From a virus, in the IMG/VR virus record IMGVR_UViG_3300009180_000137, positions 1-30,953 of that record: a stretch of 30,953 nt of DNA; one strand, 5' to 3'. The notes below the pieces were generated by a model, which worked only from the letters and a program-made list of their open reading frames with translations, ran no database searches and was not told where the DNA came from. Both the position numbers and the translations under genes were made by a program. Shown here piece by piece: positions 16,126 to 30,953 of the stretch; position 1 is the first letter of the stretch, and each line of letters starts with the position of its first letter.

Positions 16126-16261
16126 TTATTATTTCTATTTTAGTTGTTGGTTTTATCTGCAGACGTTCCCTCTGTCTCATTACGTCTCTCGTCATCTTCT
16201 TCTCTTCCGTCACGAAGTAAATCTCCGTGCCCTTGAATTTCCATTTGATTTGTTTGGTCAT
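15887..16261 (-). CDS. Overlapping hypothetical protein (124 aa)
   Basis: The frame starts inside the C-terminal tail of the sigma-like gene (122-nt overlap) and covers most of the 90-aa membrane-protein frame. The N-terminus (MTKQIKWKFKGTEIYFVTEE) is typical of real proteins. The rest is acidic with a CRSC pair (about residues 58-61) and codons of the RNY type (GCT, GAT, GGC, AAT). No domain is recognised. Either it is a true overlapping gene, or it is the real gene and the 90-aa frame is the shadow. Confidence 0.45.
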   Translation of the reverse strand: MTKQIKWKFKGTEIYFVTEEKKMTRDVMRQRERLQIKPTTKIEIINEFFTPELYAEGCRSCNGNTPSSELTALHLDPEEAQAEQTASNVRDLLGLLHELSDAPADFTDTMDDSDTPGVNDRLAL

Positions 16262-16814
16262 TGTGTTTTGTTTTTATTTCTGTCTCAGTCCTAACATGTC
16301 TCCGAATTCTGTTGATTGTAAGGGAGACTGAAGTTCTGGGTATTTGAGTTGCCCTAGCCAGCGATGAAACTGTGTGGTTCTCGCTAACGAAGGTTTCGAA
16401 TAACTTTCTGTCGTACCAGGGGAGTCTTGCAAGTTCTTCTCTAACTGCATCTGCTCGCTCCATGAAGGTGGGATCCTCTTCGTAAATCTCGTCTGCATAT
16501 TCGTCTGTGATTTCATCGTTGTGTTTTCTATAAGTATGAAAGAACTCAGAAGTGGTAGACCTCCACTGATTCAAAAGTATGCGGACGATGTAAAATCTAC
16601 CACCACCTGAATCAACTATGGCTAAACAGTCCTTCTTCTTTAGAAATTCTTCAAGACAAAAGTGCAGCAGTTCCTCCGATAGATCGCTGTTGTTGGAGAT
16701 GCGAGAAGCTGCGGTCAGTAGCTCCTTGTAGTTCTCCCGCATAAACTGGTCTATCGTCACGTCCCACTTTAGTCTATTTGAAATATGTCCTCTGGACCGT
16801 TGGAGCCTTCGCAT
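16140..16814 (-). CDS. Sigma factor-like transcription regulator
   Basis: As drawn the protein has 224 aa. The layout is that of a compact sigma-70-type (ECF-like) factor. About residues 22-95 resemble region 2 (FMRENYKELLTAASRIS, SEELLHFCLEEFLKKK, FYIVRILLNQWRSTTSEF). About 118-172 resemble region 4 with an HTH (VREELARLPWYDRKLFETFV, TVSSLARATQIPRTSVSLTINRIRRHV). The C-terminal 45 residues are low-complexity charged sequence in DNA shared with another frame. The drawn ATG overlaps the winged-helix gene by 46 nt; a GTG at 16760 (codon 19) lies 8 nt after that gene's stop and fits better. It could direct host RNA polymerase to late genes. Confidence 0.72.
   Translation of the reverse strand: MRRLQRSRGHISNRLKWDVTIDQFMRENYKELLTAASRISNNSDLSEELLHFCLEEFLKKKDCLAIVDSGGGRFYIVRILLNQWRSTTSEFFHTYRKHNDEITDEYADEIYEEDPTFMERADAVREELARLPWYDRKLFETFVSENHTVSSLARATQIPRTSVSLTINRIRRHVRTETEIKTKHNDQTNQMEIQGHGDLLRDGREEDDERRNETEGTSADKTNN
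16530..16539 (-). promoter_or_regulatory. TCATACTTAT motif inside the sigma-like gene
   Basis: An exact copy in the shared orientation but within coding sequence (encoding Ser/Phe-His-Thr-Tyr). It could be an internal promoter for the overlapping genes downstream or a chance match. Confidence 0.3.
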
Positions 16815-17110
16815 ACATCTTGAACGTCCGAGAAGGTAAAAGAAAGTGATCTAGCCCCACCTTGGAACCCACGATTGATTCTGATGTAACCTTTCATCTG
16901 TAGAAGATTAAGGGTTGTAAAAATCTCATCGGGCCTAAAGTTGAATTTGTACCCTAGCCACTCGTCGGAGCTAAAGCAACACTTGTTCTGAATCGACCAG
17001 CTGAACACGTAGTTCAACAACATCTTCTCTAGGAGTGAAAGTCCTTCTTCTCTAAAGATCCAGGGATCTATTCTCAAGAGGATCGCAGCTTCTGTTCTAT
17101 CGTCTGCCAT
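16769..17110 (-). CDS. Winged-helix/HTH DNA-binding protein (putative)
   Basis: The protein has 113 aa. About residues 20-85 fit a winged helix: helix LSLLEKMLLNYVFSWSIQ, then FSSDEWLGYKFNFRPDEIFTTLNLLQMKGYIRI, where the second helix would read DNA and YIRINRGF begins the wing. Replication-initiation and repressor-like phage proteins share this layout. It is coupled (TAATG) to the 70-aa gene upstream and lies downstream of the candidate origin, so a role in origin binding or early regulation is possible. This is inference from context. Confidence 0.6.
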   Translation of the reverse strand: MADDRTEAAILLRIDPWIFREEGLSLLEKMLLNYVFSWSIQNKCCFSSDEWLGYKFNFRPDEIFTTLNLLQMKGYIRINRGFQGGARSLSFTFSDVQDVCEGSNGPEDIFQID

Positions 17111-17322
17111 TATTCTGCTCCTATCATTTTACCTATTGTGTCCAGGGTGCACGCTGTCCAGATTTGGTTTTCCAACCTTACTGGATCGTGTCCAAGCACA
17201 ACTACATTCCCTGACGGGGTTAACTTTACTTCTTGAATTAGCCATTCACGTCCTTCGACTGTGAGGTAAATTCCATCTGGCTTATCAAGCCTCTGCTTTT
17301 GGGTTCTTACTACAAATGCCAT
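17110..17322 (-). CDS. Hypothetical protein, 70 aa
   Basis: It encodes 70 aa with no recognised domain. A likely beta-rich core (GIYLTVEGREWLIQEVKL, NVVVLGHDP) is followed by a helical end. There is no signal or membrane segment. The stop overlaps the next ATG by 1 nt (TAATG), and only 2 nt separate it from the 69-aa gene upstream. The tight packing and protein-like composition support a real small early gene. Confidence 0.65.
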   Translation of the reverse strand: MAFVVRTQKQRLDKPDGIYLTVEGREWLIQEVKLTPSGNVVVLGHDPVRLENQIWTACTLDTIGKMIGAE

Positions 17323-17324
17323 TA

Positions 17325-17534
17325 CTATTTTCCTTCTCTTGTTATAGTTAGTCGGTCCCTCTTTGTTCCCTCAAGAATAAGGTCGTCGAAGTGGCCCATG
17401 TTGACGTTCATCCAGACGCCTCTCTCGTCGTTGTAGAAGCTGGACATTAAGAAGCCCAGTGAGGTAACATAAGTTCTGTCTAGGATCCAGATCCCTTCGT
17501 AGCCTTCGATTGTGTAAGTTAATTTTTTTTCCAT
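17325..17534 (-). CDS. Hypothetical protein, 69 aa
   Basis: It encodes 69 aa (EKKLTYTIEGYEGIWILD, then SSFYNDERGVWMNVNMGHFD), probably a small beta-rich protein. No domain is recognised. It is the first gene after the 344-bp repeat-rich gap, so its promoter must lie there. It heads a tightly packed run of genes down to the terminase. Confidence 0.65.
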   Translation of the reverse strand: MEKKLTYTIEGYEGIWILDRTYVTSLGFLMSSFYNDERGVWMNVNMGHFDDLILEGTKRDRLTITREGK

Positions 17535-17770
17535 ATTGTATATATCTTTTTGTTTATTTGTTACTTTTTTGTCCGGTAACAGGTTTTTGTTCTTATTTTG
17601 TTACTGGAAAACCTTATCGTATGATAGTGTGCTGTACGTTTTTCTCCAATTTATCTTTGTTTTTCCACGGTAACAGAATTTTGGTAGAGTCCTGTGTAAA
17701 TCTTATACGCTATACGAAAGCGTATTTTGTACTTAGTTTATATAGCTCTTTTATTATTTTTGTTACTTTA

Positions 17771-17796
17771 ATAAAATAGTATAAAATAGTATAAAA
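17771..17796. repeat. 10-bp AT-rich tandem repeat
   Basis: ATAAAATAGT occurs twice in tandem, followed by a partial third copy (ATAAAA). The unit is close to one helical turn and is pure A/T apart from one G, suited to easy strand opening. Confidence 0.8.
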
Positions 17797-17827
17797 ACCA
17801 CTCAGTACACTATCAAACAGTAAGGTT

Positions 17828-17875
17828 TTTCGGTAACAGAATTTTTGTTACTTTCTTGTTACTTTGTTACCGAAA
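17828..17875. repeat. Perfect 11-bp inverted repeat around TTGTTAC iterons
   Basis: The arms TTTCGGTAACA and TGTTACCGAAA are separated by 26 nt. TTGTTAC copies start at 17845 and 17856 within the spacer, and a third at 17864 runs into the right arm. It begins 3 nt after the primase-helicase stop and lacks a T tract, so it is more likely a protein-binding or origin element than a plain terminator. Confidence 0.7.
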
Positions 17876-17878
17876 TTG

Positions 17879-20206
17879 TCATACTAGAGTGTAAGAGGTT
17901 TGGTTAATAAGATCAGTTGGATCTTCAAGAGAACTAAGACCGATAGATTTCCTGGTAAACTTAAACCCTCTAACGTTAGAAGACTGTCCCCACTTAAACC
18001 ATCTTGGTGACTTTGCTCTCTTAGAAGTTAGCTTGTGGGACCCTTCTATGTTGCCAAAGTCATCTGAGATACTTTTGATAACGTTCTTCCAATCCATTTT
18101 AAATTTAAGGGCTCCTGAAATACCAACCAATTCATCTTTGTGCAAGACAATCTCTTCTGCGAAGCTAAGTTCGTTTTCAAATAGGTCCTCTAAATAAGAT
18201 TTGATCTCCCAGTAGAAGTTAGACTTGTTGTGTTCAGCAGATTTTTTAAATGCATTTGTCTTTAAAATAGATTCATCAAATCTTGTTCTTCTTCCTTTGT
18301 CTGCATTCACAGGGGTTCTATTGATTAGCCAATGTAGCATGTAGGGAATTTCCGATTCCATCTTTTTGTAAAATTGGGGATCCACCTTTTCTTTTGGAAA
18401 TTTAAGAAGCTCTCTAATCCAAAATCTAACTTCTTCCTCTTGGACTTTCATGAAATCAAGAACTTCGTTGGAGGTAATTACAAAGTGCAGGTGATTTTGT
18501 ATCTTGTATTTTTTACTAAACTTATCGTTGACCATAACATAGGGCTCTGTAATTAGGGGCTTTAACTTAGAAACAAAGTTTGGATCCTTAACAGGTTCTA
18601 TGTCGTCCATGTCTACAATAAATTTAGAAGCATATGGGCCGTTGAACGTGTCCATAAAATCTGCTACTGATGCTCTTCCCACATTAGATTCACCGAAGAT
18701 CATCGCCAGCAGTCTTGCCAAGACAGACTTGGCAGCTTCTCTATCTTTAGAAACTAACACAATAGTTGGCATTTTCCTGGTTGGCTCTGTAATCAAAGTT
18801 TGTAAATAGTCCCAAAATATTTCCCTTTGGTCTTCTTCCAATAAACTTGTTCCGAAAACGTGATTTACAAACCCTTGGATAGTTGGGAAAGACCCTTCTA
18901 CAAACTGCTCTGGTGAAAATGGTGGCTCTTGGAATGTGTTCCAGTACTTTAAAATCCTGCCATTTATTTTATCTTCAGAGGTAATTTCTTGTTCATATGC
19001 TAGCAAGCTTGGCTTAGAAACAAAAGAGGTATACTGTCTTATCTTGCCCTTCCAAGTTGCAGAACCTGTTTTAATTGTAATGTTGTCCTTAGATCTAATT
19101 TGCAGAGTTTCGATGTGTGGGTTAGAAGGGTCTTTGACTATCTCGTAAAAATCGTCTCCAATCATCACATAAGGTATATCTTGCCCTTTCAATAGGTCAT
19201 CCTCCTTAGATCTAATTTCGTCGAAGAGAGCTTTGATAGTTTTTGCCTTCATCGTCATCTCCTTGGTAATTGGAGCAATACTTTCTTTCTCCAAAGCACC
19301 CTTAAATGCAGACTCCAACCTTTCTTTGTCTCTGGATTTATTTTTAGAATTTGGATTTAATGCCAACTTTTCGTGCATCAAGACCAGAACTTCTGCCGGT
19401 GGAATTTCAATTAAACCACCTTTGATAAACTGTGCTACCCTTTTGGTAACAGACATGATTGTTTCATAGATGGTTTTATCAGAAGACTGGGACAAAATGT
19501 CCAGCTGGTAATTTAGTATTCTAAAGTCTTCTTTGATAGAAGAACCTACCCCAACATTTGGATCAAAGATGGAATTTAGAATTGCTGACACTTTTGGTTT
19601 AAAAGGGATAGCATCAGGTACGCAGTAGATATCGGGGTCGTGATTGATAAACATTGGCTGGGATAAAACAGCTTGTGAATTATCAAACGCAACTCCCCAG
19701 AGGTTTTCAAAGTGGGGGTAAACCCCTTCAAGAAGAGTTTTTCTATAAAAGTCATTGACGGCATCATCTGCAATGCCAGATAGAAAACTGCCATCTATTT
19801 TAATTAATCCCTTTAATCCAAAAGATGTAGATTTAAAACAGAGCACAACTTCTGGAGTTGTACAAATCTTATCCACAAGTAAATCCCAATCTACATCTGG
19901 GTTGTCTTTTCTGTCTATGTCAAACCCTGCAACTTCATTCCAAGTGCCGGGGATAAAACTTGTTTTGTTCCTCATCGTAAAAAGACAAGGAACTAACATG
20001 TAAGGAAATTTAAATTTCATAGATCGAACTGCATCCCTACCGTGCAATGCAAATTGTTCCCTATAATATTCTGTCATAGACTTAAGCCCTTGGTGGGTTT
20101 TAATGTCCAAGGCTAAATCTACAAGTCCAACAGTTGTTTTAGGTTCATGATCCGGTTGGAAACAATCATGATACTTGTCGTCGTTTTTAAATAAACTAAA
20201 TTTCAT
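17879..20206 (-). CDS. Primase-helicase (BT4734/VirE-like primase with D5/DUF5906-type helicase)
   Basis: The protein has 775 aa. About residues 25-140 fit the BT4734/VirE N-terminal primase module: MKFKFPYMLVPCLFTMR, the acidic GFDIDRKDN (D96, D98), and CFKSTSFGLKGLIKI. About 455-660 are an SF3/D5-like helicase: P-loop region VLVSKDREAAKSVLARLL (486-494), Walker B-like FIVDMDD (529-534), sensor FVITSN (575-580), and EEEVRFW. The P-loop lacks the usual glycines but keeps Lys-Ser. It would prime and unwind phage DNA; no DNA polymerase is visible in the window, so the host enzyme is probably used. It lies beside the origin-like repeats. The ATG at 20206 is 9 nt after the upstream stop. Confidence 0.85.
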   Translation of the reverse strand: MKFSLFKNDDKYHDCFQPDHEPKTTVGLVDLALDIKTHQGLKSMTEYYREQFALHGRDAVRSMKFKFPYMLVPCLFTMRNKTSFIPGTWNEVAGFDIDRKDNPDVDWDLLVDKICTTPEVVLCFKSTSFGLKGLIKIDGSFLSGIADDAVNDFYRKTLLEGVYPHFENLWGVAFDNSQAVLSQPMFINHDPDIYCVPDAIPFKPKVSAILNSIFDPNVGVGSSIKEDFRILNYQLDILSQSSDKTIYETIMSVTKRVAQFIKGGLIEIPPAEVLVLMHEKLALNPNSKNKSRDKERLESAFKGALEKESIAPITKEMTMKAKTIKALFDEIRSKEDDLLKGQDIPYVMIGDDFYEIVKDPSNPHIETLQIRSKDNITIKTGSATWKGKIRQYTSFVSKPSLLAYEQEITSEDKINGRILKYWNTFQEPPFSPEQFVEGSFPTIQGFVNHVFGTSLLEEDQREIFWDYLQTLITEPTRKMPTIVLVSKDREAAKSVLARLLAMIFGESNVGRASVADFMDTFNGPYASKFIVDMDDIEPVKDPNFVSKLKPLITEPYVMVNDKFSKKYKIQNHLHFVITSNEVLDFMKVQEEEVRFWIRELLKFPKEKVDPQFYKKMESEIPYMLHWLINRTPVNADKGRRTRFDESILKTNAFKKSAEHNKSNFYWEIKSYLEDLFENELSFAEEIVLHKDELVGISGALKFKMDWKNVIKSISDDFGNIEGSHKLTSKRAKSPRWFKWGQSSNVRGFKFTRKSIGLSSLEDPTDLINQTSYTLV

Positions 20207-25726: not shown

Positions 25727-28000
25727 TTAAACGAAGTTAAGTGCGAATGTTCCTAGATAGTTTGTACCATCGTAGAATAGATTAATAACATCTATACCTC
25801 CAACGGTTGTAGTTAGGACTGGTGGGTTGTTGTAAGCCCATTTAATTGTTGGGAAAGTAATAGTGTAAGAACCTACTCCACCTTGAGTTACCTCAATCAT
25901 GTAGTTTGCTCCAGGTAAAGGATTAGAGAAAGTTAAAGTTGTAGAACCAAGTAGAGTTAAAGTTTGGTTGTTAGAGTCATTCCAGTTGACTGTTGCTGTT
26001 CCTGTAACGGTTCCGATATCATTTACTAGAGATGCACCTTGACCAAAAGCAACTAAGTTTGGTGTGTGAACTGTGTTGGCGTAGCTTGAAGTTAGGTTAA
26101 CTCCTAAAACATAAGCAGATCCGTGGCAAGCACAAGCTCCGTATCCAATCGCAACTGCACATGACGTAGTAGCATTAGCTGATCTACCTAGTACAACTGC
26201 TCCTTCTCCGTTTGCACATCCATCAAATCCAACAGAAACTGATCTTCCTACTGCTCTTTGATTATATCCCATTGCTACACCAAATGCTCCTGCATTTGCC
26301 CCAGAACCGATTGAAATTGCTGCGTCTCCGTCTGCTATATTACAAGATCCAATTGCTACCGCAGTGTATTGGTTTGCCGTAACAAATTGTCCTATTGCTA
26401 TAGATGCACATCCCTGGTTTCCTCCTACGCAAGAGTTTGTTCCTATTACAACGTTATTAGCTCCACAGTTGTTTGCTCTGATGCACGAGTTTGTTCCGAT
26501 TAAGACACTTCCTGTAATTTCGCAGTTTGGATCTGCGCAGTGGGAAATTCTTGAGTTTGTCCCAATCATAACAGTGCTGCTATGTAGAGTAGAATTTAGA
26601 CCTTGATCAGTTCCAATTATTACTGATTTGCAAGCCCCAGTTCCTCCAAAGGAAGAATAACCTAATAATAAAGATCCTGTTCCGCCAGGAAAAATTGTTG
26701 AACATGAACCTAGTACAAGAGCACAAGCAGAATAGTTTGCTGAAAAATTACCTATAACAGAAGATAAATCCTTAGAACTTAAAGTGTAAGAATTATTTCC
26801 TAATACAGTACTATAAAAACCTGTTGTGCAAGACTGATATCCCACAACTGTAGAAGATTGTCCTCCTGCTCTTGCAGCATTTCCAACAGCAACTATACCT
26901 CCATTTCCTACTCCTGAAGCACACCAACCGATAATTGTAGTGTTATCGGCATTTCCAGATTGACAGTGTCCTATACCTATTGCAAATTGTCCGGAAACAT
27001 TAGAATTTCCTATTGAAATTGAATTTACCCCTGTAGATCTAGAACAACATCCAATTGCTATATTTGCATAATCTCCTGCTCCAAACGAAGAACATGTATT
27101 AGCATTAAAACCAAGACTGACAGAATAATTTTGATTCCCAGAAGTTGCTCCAACCCCAGTAGAAACTAAGTTGGAAGTTGCTTCGACAGTAACAGCCGCT
27201 GTTCCACCAGGTGCTGCTGCTCCCGTTGGTCCTACTCCCCCAGTTGCTCCGTTAACCCCGGACGTTCCAGAAGTGCCAGATACACCAGAAGTTCCGGAAG
27301 TACCTGAAATGCCAGACGTTCCAGACGTACCGTTAGCTCCGGAAGTTCCTGACGATCCATTTACACCGGAGGTACCAGAAGTTCCAGAAGATCCAGACAC
27401 ACCAGAAGTTCCGGACGAACCCGATACACCAGAAGTTCCAGAAGAACCAGAAACACCAGAAGTTCCAGAAGATCCATTAACCCCGCTTGTTCCACTTGAA
27501 CCAGATACACCAGAAGTTCCACTTGTTCCAGACGATCCAGATACACCAGAAGTTCCGGACGAACCAGACACACCAGAAGTTCCACTGCTACCTGAAGATC
27601 CGTTTACACCAGAAGTTCCTGACGATCCAGCAGAACCAGACACACCAGAAGTTCCAGATGAACCAGACACACCAGAAGTTCCACTTGTTCCAGAAGTTCC
27701 GTTTACACCAGAAGTTCCGCTAGAACCAGAAGATCCGTTAGCCCCGTTTACCCCAGAAGTTCCGGAAGAACCAGATACACCGGAAGTCCCAGAAGTACCA
27801 GACGATCCAGCTGCACCGGTCGGTCCTATAGGTCCCCCAGTTACTGCACCAGTAAAATTAATTGTTGTTGTAGAAACTTCGAAGGGAAGTACGTTCCCGA
27901 ATCCGTCTGTTACTGGCTGGAGTGTTCCATCAGCCCCAGAAGCCCCTATGTTTAGTAGAGCCCCGTATGAGTTTTTGATTTGATCGCCTGATAAGTTCAT
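25727..28000 (-). CDS. Long tail fibre with collagen-like shaft and YadA-like head repeats
   Basis: The protein has 757 aa. Residues 1-55 are a probable attachment domain. About 56-265 are Gly-X-Y triplets (GTS, GVS, GSS, GVN), almost free of proline except at the ends. About 275-640 are 14-residue YadA-like head repeats (patterns such as SISIGNSNVSGQFAIGIG) with roughly 20 cysteines. About 640-757 form a beta-rich C-terminal domain (LVAFGQGASLVND, TVNWNDSNNQTLTL, EVTQGGVGSYTITFP). It would be a trimer. The C-terminal domain and head region are paralogous to the right-edge fibre. The motif TCATACTTAT lies 6 nt before the ATG. Confidence 0.88.
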   Translation of the reverse strand: MNLSGDQIKNSYGALLNIGASGADGTLQPVTDGFGNVLPFEVSTTTINFTGAVTGGPIGPTGAAGSSGTSGTSGVSGSSGTSGVNGANGSSGSSGTSGVNGTSGTSGTSGVSGSSGTSGVSGSAGSSGTSGVNGSSGSSGTSGVSGSSGTSGVSGSSGTSGTSGVSGSSGTSGVNGSSGTSGVSGSSGTSGVSGSSGTSGVSGSSGTSGTSGVNGSSGTSGANGTSGTSGISGTSGTSGVSGTSGTSGVNGATGGVGPTGAAAPGGTAAVTVEATSNLVSTGVGATSGNQNYSVSLGFNANTCSSFGAGDYANIAIGCCSRSTGVNSISIGNSNVSGQFAIGIGHCQSGNADNTTIIGWCASGVGNGGIVAVGNAARAGGQSSTVVGYQSCTTGFYSTVLGNNSYTLSSKDLSSVIGNFSANYSACALVLGSCSTIFPGGTGSLLLGYSSFGGTGACKSVIIGTDQGLNSTLHSSTVMIGTNSRISHCADPNCEITGSVLIGTNSCIRANNCGANNVVIGTNSCVGGNQGCASIAIGQFVTANQYTAVAIGSCNIADGDAAISIGSGANAGAFGVAMGYNQRAVGRSVSVGFDGCANGEGAVVLGRSANATTSCAVAIGYGACACHGSAYVLGVNLTSSYANTVHTPNLVAFGQGASLVNDIGTVTGTATVNWNDSNNQTLTLLGSTTLTFSNPLPGANYMIEVTQGGVGSYTITFPTIKWAYNNPPVLTTTVGGIDVINLFYDGTNYLGTFALNFV
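27220..27838 (-). repeat. Collagen-like Gly-X-Y coding repeat of the long fibre
   Basis: Imperfect 9-nt and 18-nt units encoding GTSGVSGSS-type triplets over about 600 nt. It is the longest of the three tracts in the window and likely to vary in copy number by recombination or slippage. Confidence 0.9.
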
Positions 28001-29137: not shown

Positions 29138-30953
29138 TTAAGAGAAGTTTAGATTAGCATTACCAAAGTAGCCAGTTACACCTGCTATGTAAACCAAAGA
29201 AACTGCGTCCGTTGCTCCAGCTGCTGTCGACAAAGTTGGAGGTGTTCCACCCGGCCATTCTACATCTGATCCCCACGAAACCGTCTTGCCTCCTGTTCCT
29301 CCCTGAGTTAGGAAGAGGGTGTAGACTGCCCCGTCGATCGGGTTAGACTTAGTTAGTGTGGTGATGCTGGAAGTCAGAGTTAGCGTCTGAATGTTAGAGT
29401 TGTCCCAGTTGATGGTTGTTGTGCCACCGGTAGAACCTATAACGTTGGTTAGAGATGCAGCTTGACCGTAAGCTACTAAAGAATTAACGTGCGTTGTGTT
29501 TGCTCTGGTTGAAGAAAGACAAGCTCCAATAACTGTTGCATTTACGTGCGTTGAACAAGATCTATATCCAAAAACTTGTGCGCATAGTGCAGTAGAACAA
29601 GAGATTGCTCCAATAGTTGTTTGATAACCATCATATCCCCCACCTGCTCCAGTGTTCCTTACTGTATATCCTATAGCAATACCACCACTACTATCAATTG
29701 AACTACTGCTCCATCCAATAACGACCGAAGTTTCACTATTAAAAATACAACTTGCCAGTCCTATTAAAGTGTTTCCTCCTTTGTTTACATTGCCGCAACT
29801 AAGTAGTCTTGTTCCAAAAGCTACATCTGGATTATCTGAATCTAAAACTGTAACACAACTTCCAACTCCAACGTTATTTTGGATTGTGTTGTAAAGATTA
29901 GAAGAAACTACAACTTGATCACCTATTGCAACTGCTCCATTTCCTGTGTTAGCTCCCCTCCCAATTATTACGCAAGATTCTCTACCGATTGCAATTGAAA
30001 TATTTTGTGTAGAAGAAGCTGCCTGCCCAATTACTATAGATCTTGATCCGGTGGTCTGTGCTGAATTACCAATCACAACTGAGTTGCAAGCCCCGGTACC
30101 TCCGACAGAAGAAGAACCTAAGACTATGGTGCCGGTTGCTCCTGGGAAAACTTTTGATGCAGTTCCGATTGCTGTAGAACAAGCAGAAGTAGAACAAGAT
30201 AAATTTCCTATTACAATTGCGCAAACTGCTGTTGTAGATGTTGTAGCATTTCCATCTCCGTTGCCTAAAGCAATAGAAGAATCTCCACAATTACAAATAC
30301 CAAATCCGATTGCAATACCTTTACATGCAGAAGATCCAGAAACTACTCCTATTGCTATTCCATAATCGCAACATGCTTTAGCGTAGTTTCCTACTGCAAG
30401 AGCAGAATCAGAACCACAAGCAAGAGAATTTTGTCCGAGTGCAATATTTCCTTGACCAACTGCGCAAGCATAAGAACCAACTACTGTTGTTGCTCTCCCT
30501 GGTAATCCACCAACTTGTGAGTTAGAAATTGCTCCAGATCCAATTGCAATGTTGCCATCATTGTTTTGAACAGTAGAATTATATCCAATAGAAATTGAAG
30601 TTGAACTTGTTGCTGTTGCTCCAACCCCAGTAGAAACTAAAGAGTTTGTTTGCTCAATGGTAATTGGAGAAGATATCCCCGATGCTCCAGTTGCTCCGTT
30701 TACCCCGGAAGTTCCTGACGTTCCGCTAGTCCCAGAAGTACCTGACGTTCCGGATGAACCATTCTGTCCAGGAACTCCAGTTTCTCCGAATGCTATTGCT
30801 TGGATTGTTCCAACCAAGTCGGAAAGAGCCCCAGGAGAAAATAAATCTGTAAAAGTAATTCTTACCCCAGAAGCAGTTTTATTGGTTACGATTATATTTG
30901 CAAGCCCTGAAATACTTAGATCAAATGCATAACCGCCGGAGAAAGATCCAGAC
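29138..30953 (-). CDS. Long tail fibre, C-terminal part (runs off the right edge)
   Basis: The frame is open to the window edge, giving 605 codons. A TTG at 30817 is in frame but is not needed as a start. Upstream of it the frame reads SGSFSGGYAFDLSISGLANI and VTNKTASGVRITFTDLF, the second half of a small beta-sandwich. Then come a short Gly-X-Y tract (30676-30776), cysteine-containing YadA-like head repeats over about 370 residues, and a C-terminal domain (SLVAYGQAASLTNVIGS, TINWDNSNIQTLTL) paralogous to the 25727-28000 fibre. The true N-terminus is probably the gene at the left edge. It heads the fibre operon as visible here. Confidence 0.88.
   Translation of the reverse strand, partial: SGSFSGGYAFDLSISGLANIIVTNKTASGVRITFTDLFSPGALSDLVGTIQAIAFGETGVPGQNGSSGTSGTSGTSGTSGTSGVNGATGASGISSPITIEQTNSLVSTGVGATATSSTSISIGYNSTVQNNDGNIAIGSGAISNSQVGGLPGRATTVVGSYACAVGQGNIALGQNSLACGSDSALAVGNYAKACCDYGIAIGVVSGSSACKGIAIGFGICNCGDSSIALGNGDGNATTSTTAVCAIVIGNLSCSTSACSTAIGTASKVFPGATGTIVLGSSSVGGTGACNSVVIGNSAQTTGSRSIVIGQAASSTQNISIAIGRESCVIIGRGANTGNGAVAIGDQVVVSSNLYNTIQNNVGVGSCVTVLDSDNPDVAFGTRLLSCGNVNKGGNTLIGLASCIFNSETSVVIGWSSSSIDSSGGIAIGYTVRNTGAGGGYDGYQTTIGAISCSTALCAQVFGYRSCSTHVNATVIGACLSSTRANTTHVNSLVAYGQAASLTNVIGSTGGTTTINWDNSNIQTLTLTSSITTLTKSNPIDGAVYTLFLTQGGTGGKTVSWGSDVEWPGGTPPTLSTAAGATDAVSLVYIAGVTGYFGNANLNFS
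30676..30776 (-). repeat. Short collagen-like coding repeat
   Basis: About eleven Gly-X-Y triplets (GSSGTSGTSG... GVNGATGAS) between the sandwich domain and the head repeats of the right-edge fibre. Confidence 0.85.

Follow-up and report, generated by a model that had tools for sequence, protein, structure and literature searches.

The current analysis points to a 344-bp intergenic gap immediately 3' of a primase-helicase gene as, in all likelihood, a phage origin of DNA replication, with iterons to which that same primase-helicase would bind through its C-terminal winged helix. The gap belongs to a 30,953-bp virus contig, which was analyzed over its full length and is referred to here as the window, and it fills exactly the space between the minus-strand ORFs 17325-17534 and 17879-20206 (Table 1). 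The TerL encoded by this record resembles those of Bacteroidota phages among others, including phages of Nonlabens, Cellulophaga, Bacteroides, and Riemerella. Elsewhere in the record, three minus-strand ORFs (2-625, 25727-28000, and 29138-30817) encode proteins with collagen-like SGTSG repeats, which are probably tail or fibre proteins.

The key feature of the gap is its content of TGTTAC/GTAACA words. Nine are present, where 0.56 would be expected and no more than four appeared in any of 2000 dinucleotide shuffles, and the other 30 kb of the record contain only ten further copies. A sequence-only reading of this DNA had listed nine TTGTTAC/GTAACA elements; all of them were found, with TGTTAC being the core common to the nine and TTGTTAC occurring in six. 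The words are divided into four on the primase side, four on the far side, and one within an AT-rich core, which peaks at 90% A+T between 17750 and 17789. The iteron nearest to the primase gene starts within about 9 bp of its stop codon, and two members of the same set are separated by an 11-bp step (17846 to 17857). An 11-bp perfect inverted repeat (17828-17838 and 17865-17875) flanks this primase-proximal set, and a 15-bp direct repeat, CGGTAACAGAATTTT, occurs at 17668 and again at 17831. Both of these elements, together with a 10-bp tandem and a small hairpin, had been claimed earlier, and each was located in the gap. What had been overlooked is a much longer imperfect inverted repeat with 49-nt arms, which spans the AT-rich core and whose best gap-free core surpasses 30 of 30 shuffles (z 8.8). 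As single-stranded DNA, the gap as a whole also folds unusually well (z -4.4). GC skew along the record exhibits no inflection at the gap and so lends an origin there no support, though this measure is confounded by the one-sided orientation of the genes. Separately, the short elements ATACGATA and GATAGTGT are common to the gaps of the window and of loci L014, L016, L017, and L044, though the iterons of these gaps differ.

Table 1. Features in and around the proposed origin (positions in the 30,953-bp window)
Feature	Position	Strand	Basis or remark
First ORF of the downstream operon (g69), 69 aa	17325..17534	-	75-87% identity in relatives with another array or none
Tenth TGTTAC copy, inside the 5' end of ORF 17325-17534	17464..17469	-	may be chance
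Entire gap following the primase-helicase gene on its 3' side, proposed as replication origin	17535..17878	.	iterons and relatives
Iteron set B, distal	17557..17677	.	TGTTAC cores 17559+, 17576-, 17599+, 17670-
Long imperfect inverted repeat, left arm, 49 nt	17595..17643	+	78% complementary to right arm
Small hairpin ATACGCTATACGAAAGCGTAT	17705..17725	+	terminator-like on the + strand only
AT-rich core with ATAAAATAGT tandem 17771-17790	17730..17809	.	proposed melting site
Lone TGTTAC iteron within the AT-rich core	17761..17766	+	
Long imperfect inverted repeat, right arm	17794..17842	+	
Iteron set A, primase-proximal	17831..17872	.	TGTTAC cores 17833-, 17846+, 17857+, 17865+
Primase-helicase, 775 aa, proposed initiator	17879..20206	-	BT4734-like N-terminal domain residues 64-194; DUF5906 / D5-type SF3 helicase 485-584
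C-terminal winged-helix-like region, residues 663-751, proposed iteron-binding domain	17954..18220	-	model and exchange in relatives

The proposed initiator carries the Pfam BT4734-like N-terminal domain and DUF5906, the latter at 50.7 bits against a gathering score of 27.6, and it scores below the cut-off for the P4-family primase C-terminal domain (TIGR01613; 20.1 bits against 108.7). The AlphaFold2 model of the full protein (mean pLDDT 82) finds its closest solved fold in the C-terminal region of the NrS-1 polymerase (6k9c, 3.8e-15) and also matches the SaPI5 primase-helicase (7ola, 1.6e-7) as well as other D5-type viral helicases. On this model, the SF3/D5 fold is clear. Residues 663-751 are predicted to follow the order helix-strand-helix-helix-strand-strand, as in a winged helix. 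When the C-terminal part was modelled alone (pLDDT 77), it matched residues 452-561 of SaPIbov1 Rep (8tch) with a modest Z of 5.0, a level at which unrelated folds score likewise, and the Rep match stands among other winged helices. A Foldseek search with this C-terminal model alone returned no significant match, and the P4 alpha domain was absent among the matches listed. The Walker A motif of the SF3 domain (residues ~484-496; 18719-18757, minus strand) is degenerate, reading SKDREAAKS where relatives have SEEQGTGKT and similar sequences; it is without the glycines of the relatives but retains the K and S, so the ATPase of this protein may be altered.

It is evident that arrays in the equivalent place accompany many other genes of this family. 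An alignment of seven SF3 genes retrieved 80 loci, from which 33 representatives sharing <90% identity were surveyed for a 7-mer recurring within 350 bp downstream of the stop codon. Such 3' arrays were found at P<=0.01 in 24 of the 33 and at z>3 in 21; among the controls, z>3 was reached by 0 of 29 regions 5' of the gene and by 3 of 274 windows elsewhere (paired Wilcoxon p=5e-7). The other nine have no array at P<=0.01 and amount to about a quarter of the surveyed relatives, so a rule that these genes are followed by an array is not universal. The array words differ from one relative to the next (GTAACA, GGTTAC, GTACGA, TGTAAA, AGTAAT, TGTCCC, GTTTAA, TTGTTA, and others), but they are often spaced at 11 bp and often have in common a GT that precedes variable bases. 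In Apibacter muscae, a Bacteroidota genome contig that was the one locus obtained from a single-protein scan, eight copies of TGATGCA occupy the equivalent place. In the comparison with relatives proposed by the sequence-only reading, arrays do recur in the equivalent gap of many relatives, but with other motifs, and in relatives of only about 20-32% identity. A peptide-pattern search of the viral collection yielded no close relatives of the primase, so it is upon relatives at this distance that the comparison of repeat conservation is based. Inverted repeats were also considered as a common feature; they are present in many of the relatives but are less general than the iterons. Two of the loci, L061 and L021, are without iterons 3' of the SF3 gene and instead have an AT-rich stretch bounded by AAAGGACTAT and ATAGTCCTTT with further complementary parts. 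This stretch resembles the stem-loop origin of pRN1, although a gap-free test was not significant (P 0.07).

A link between the C-terminal domain and the array comes from two groups of these relatives. The L070 group comprises 18 loci, mostly with AGTAAT arrays, and the L074 group comprises five loci with TGTAAA arrays. Across the 64 cluster pairs between the two groups, DNA identity is 93% along the helicase gene until about 370 bp ahead of its stop codon and 62% from there to 240 bp after it, a stretch that is 89% identical within the L070 group. These boundaries were defined on the L070/L074 profile before being used for all 64 pairs, and the pairs are not independent of one another. In the L070/L074 pair itself, identity returns to 67-98%, mostly 83-98%, across the next 1.5 kb, while the downstream genes vary in other pairs. 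Thus, the two groups differ both in the final ~120 codons and in the entire array but not in the rest of the gene, and this joint difference constitutes sequence evidence that the C-terminal domain reads the array. We presume that the two form an exchangeable, co-evolving pair, as judged from the relatives and not from the present record, and such co-evolution would account for each phage lineage having its own iteron word in the equivalent place. One candidate specificity residue lies five positions before a YIRKVL-type helix, where Asn is found in 13 of 13 loci with TGTAAAA arrays and Gln in 19 with other words, counts that are uncorrected for kinship (for example, L065, L067, L074, and L092 versus L105, L106, and L100). 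When motif similarity was correlated with protein identity window by window along the alignment, the result was uninformative, because relatedness dominates.

The converse comparison, among phages that share the downstream operon and terminase but possess other replication genes, bears on what the array belongs to. A TerL scan provided 50 loci, the closest of which include L003, L004, L007, L038, and L043; all five retain g69, TerS, and mostly the small winged-helix (wHTH) gene, but their replication genes differ. L038 has another SF3 gene and six copies of GAAACA, and L004 has another replication gene and six copies of GTGACA within a large inverted repeat. L003 and L007 encode a small wHTH protein and a helicase-like protein, with gaps of just 33 bp and 27 bp, respectively, ahead of g69, and no array was found in the stretches scanned. 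L043, with yet another gene set, has no enriched word in its gap and only GGACACAC-type repeats that lie partly inside the preceding ORF. Judging from these sequences, the array tracks the replication gene rather than the downstream operon. A scan for the 69-aa downstream gene recovered three loci only, each on a contig that was already known. When the iteron DNA pattern was searched in viral contigs, two matches arose without the architecture of an array and were taken as chance.

These comparisons bear upon the possibility that the gap is an operator or promoter, in which a small winged-helix or sigma-like protein would bind GTAACA and control the operon from 17534 downward. The gap is the sole sizeable intergenic space ahead of that operon, it contains six sigma-70-like matches against 2.1 expected, and genes nearby encode a small wHTH-like protein (16769-17110) as well as a protein of 224 aa (16140-16814, minus strand) that weakly matches sigma-70 region 4 (E 0.0097) and is conserved in many relatives. 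The sequence-only reading had named a winged-helix protein, beside the primase-helicase, as a candidate binder; for the small winged-helix protein this role is now unlikely, since copies 86-94% identical to it are found in L003 and L043, which have no array despite their conserved g69. Likewise, the operon of L003 and L007 starts directly after the replication gene, arrays follow SF3 genes irrespective of the downstream content, and no Bacteroidetes-type promoter match is present in the gap. As the array is replaced or absent where the replication gene differs while the operon and terminase are kept, we regard an operator as improbable. The same reasoning applies to a packaging (pac/cos) site recognized by the terminase, whose genes are on the same strand at a distance of about 2.2 kb. 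In the nearest relatives that have another array or lack one, however, TerS and TerL are conserved at about 72-96% identity, and arrays follow the SF3 gene. A packaging site would be extremely surprising, and the terminase was set aside as a binder, being conserved where the array is not.

Two further explanations place the repeats with the primase gene itself. They could be recognition sites at which the primase initiates primers, rather than binding sites of an initiator. The primase of NrS-1 does recognize TTTGGTTA, a word inside the NrS-1 array, and the CCPol-MP of SCCmec primes efficiently at iterons; in L070/L074, however, the change of motif accompanies that of the C-terminal domain, with ~93% identity over the rest of the gene, and in SCCmec it is as duplex DNA that the helicase C-terminal domain binds the iterons. 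Priming at the repeats would be compatible with an origin and not exclusive of it, but it is quite improbable as the full account. The repeats might also be a by-product of hairpins in a terminator or other 3' element of the primase transcript, for which the strong single-strand folding of the gap (z -4.4) could be cited. Yet the sole terminator-like hairpin is found on the + strand, opposite to transcription, and the iterons, present in both orientations, are more numerous than any single hairpin would require, which makes this explanation very unlikely. A replication origin is much better supported than the operator which the sequence-only reading had named as the main alternative, given that the array goes with the replication gene and that arrays of other motifs are found in the equivalent place in relatives.

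The replication origin we propose has close parallels among characterized systems. SaPI Rep and SCCmec Cch2 both recognize, through their C-terminal domains, iterons located directly downstream of their own genes (PMC7581432), and in PICI origins an AT-rich region lies between two sets of iterons (PMC6092414). Similarly, the present gap lies immediately 3' of an initiator-helicase gene, four iterons lie to either side of its core, which reaches 90% A+T, and the initiator matches the SaPI5 primase-helicase (7ola) and SaPIbov1 Rep (8tch) in fold. The SaPI initiator has a C-terminal DNA-binding domain (PMC7581432), to which the predicted winged helix, with its modest fold support, would correspond here. 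Unlike those satellites, which need a helper phage, the present record encodes TerS, TerL, portal, capsid-like, and tail-like proteins, the TerL and portal having relatives in other phage contigs, and its initiator combines BT4734_N with DUF5906. Cch2 is likewise a helicase of the D5 type, and its C-terminal domain in isolation binds iterons that directly follow the gene (PMC7581432), but it is encoded in a staphylococcal cassette with three AAGTG iterons only, as opposed to nine copies of another word in a phage. Phage P4 alpha is described as a single protein with primase, helicase, and repeat-binding winged helix (PMC4234260), although its primase is of the TOPRIM type rather than BT4734-like. 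In plasmid pRN1, the origin is similarly located directly downstream of the primase-helicase gene (ORF904) (PMC4234260), but as a ~100-nt stem-loop without iterons, whereas iterons dominate here and a long inverted repeat is present as well. If the process resembles that of SaPI Rep and Cch2, the primase-helicase would bind the two iteron sets through its C-terminal winged helix, upon which two hexamers would assemble, the AT-rich core would melt, and the helicase would load itself. The N-terminal domain of the same protein may then prime synthesis. The position of the array, its words, and its symmetry can be read from the DNA itself, and their co-variation from the relatives.

Arrays of this type are also encountered among annotated and cultivated phages. 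Among 15 annotated phage records that contain related genes, five proved to have a 3' array exceeding 200 shuffles and the other ten did not; a tblastn search with L098 in annotated phages gave no match. The arrays comprise 12 copies of AAGTGTA right after the primase of NrS-1, 11 of TGTGCGG in Stenotrophomonas phage S1, nine of TGTCTGA in Halomonas phage H4907, eight of CCCTGCA in Moraxella phage Mcat4, and five of TGTGTCG in Pseudomonas phage PG1. NrS-1, whose polymerase is the closest solved fold to the present initiator, is similar in having its array 3' of the gene, but it differs in its word and in the location of the array within a stretch annotated as NRS1_29. The NrS-1 polymerase needs the primase recognition site TTTGGTTA in its template (PMC8718748, PMC7102993), and the sole exact copy of this site in the NrS-1 record is at 17198, within the array. 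The array occupies most of the hypothetical ORF NRS1_29 (L152, AB746912, 17055-17456), the translation of which is a repetitive, Lys/Asn-rich product, and NRS1_29 may not be a gene. In phage S1 (L139, EU849489), the annotated gp2 (2454-2804) overlaps the array, in which five copies face one way and six the opposite way about a central gap; this stretch is possibly an origin annotated as a gene.

Considering these observations together, it seems fairly probable that self-loading D5-type initiator helicases with a cognate 3' iteron origin are widespread in independent tailed phages and not only in satellites, that the C-terminal domain and array are exchanged as one cassette, and that the origin of NrS-1 is located at ~17060-17375. 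We found no earlier report of a 3' iteron layout for these phages among the open-licence papers found. A layout once called peculiar to satellites here occurs in complete tailed phages that encode structural proteins of their own. As origins are unknown for most uncultured phages, a simple rule, namely to look directly behind the primase-helicase gene for a word present 6-14 times, yields candidate origins in dozens of them and also points to candidates in several cultivated phages, including one with a crystallised replicative enzyme. Exchange of a ~120-residue domain along with its array further provides pairs of protein and site from which a recognition code might be read. If cassette exchange does operate in this manner, phages with genomes that differ in little else would thereby gain different origin specificities.
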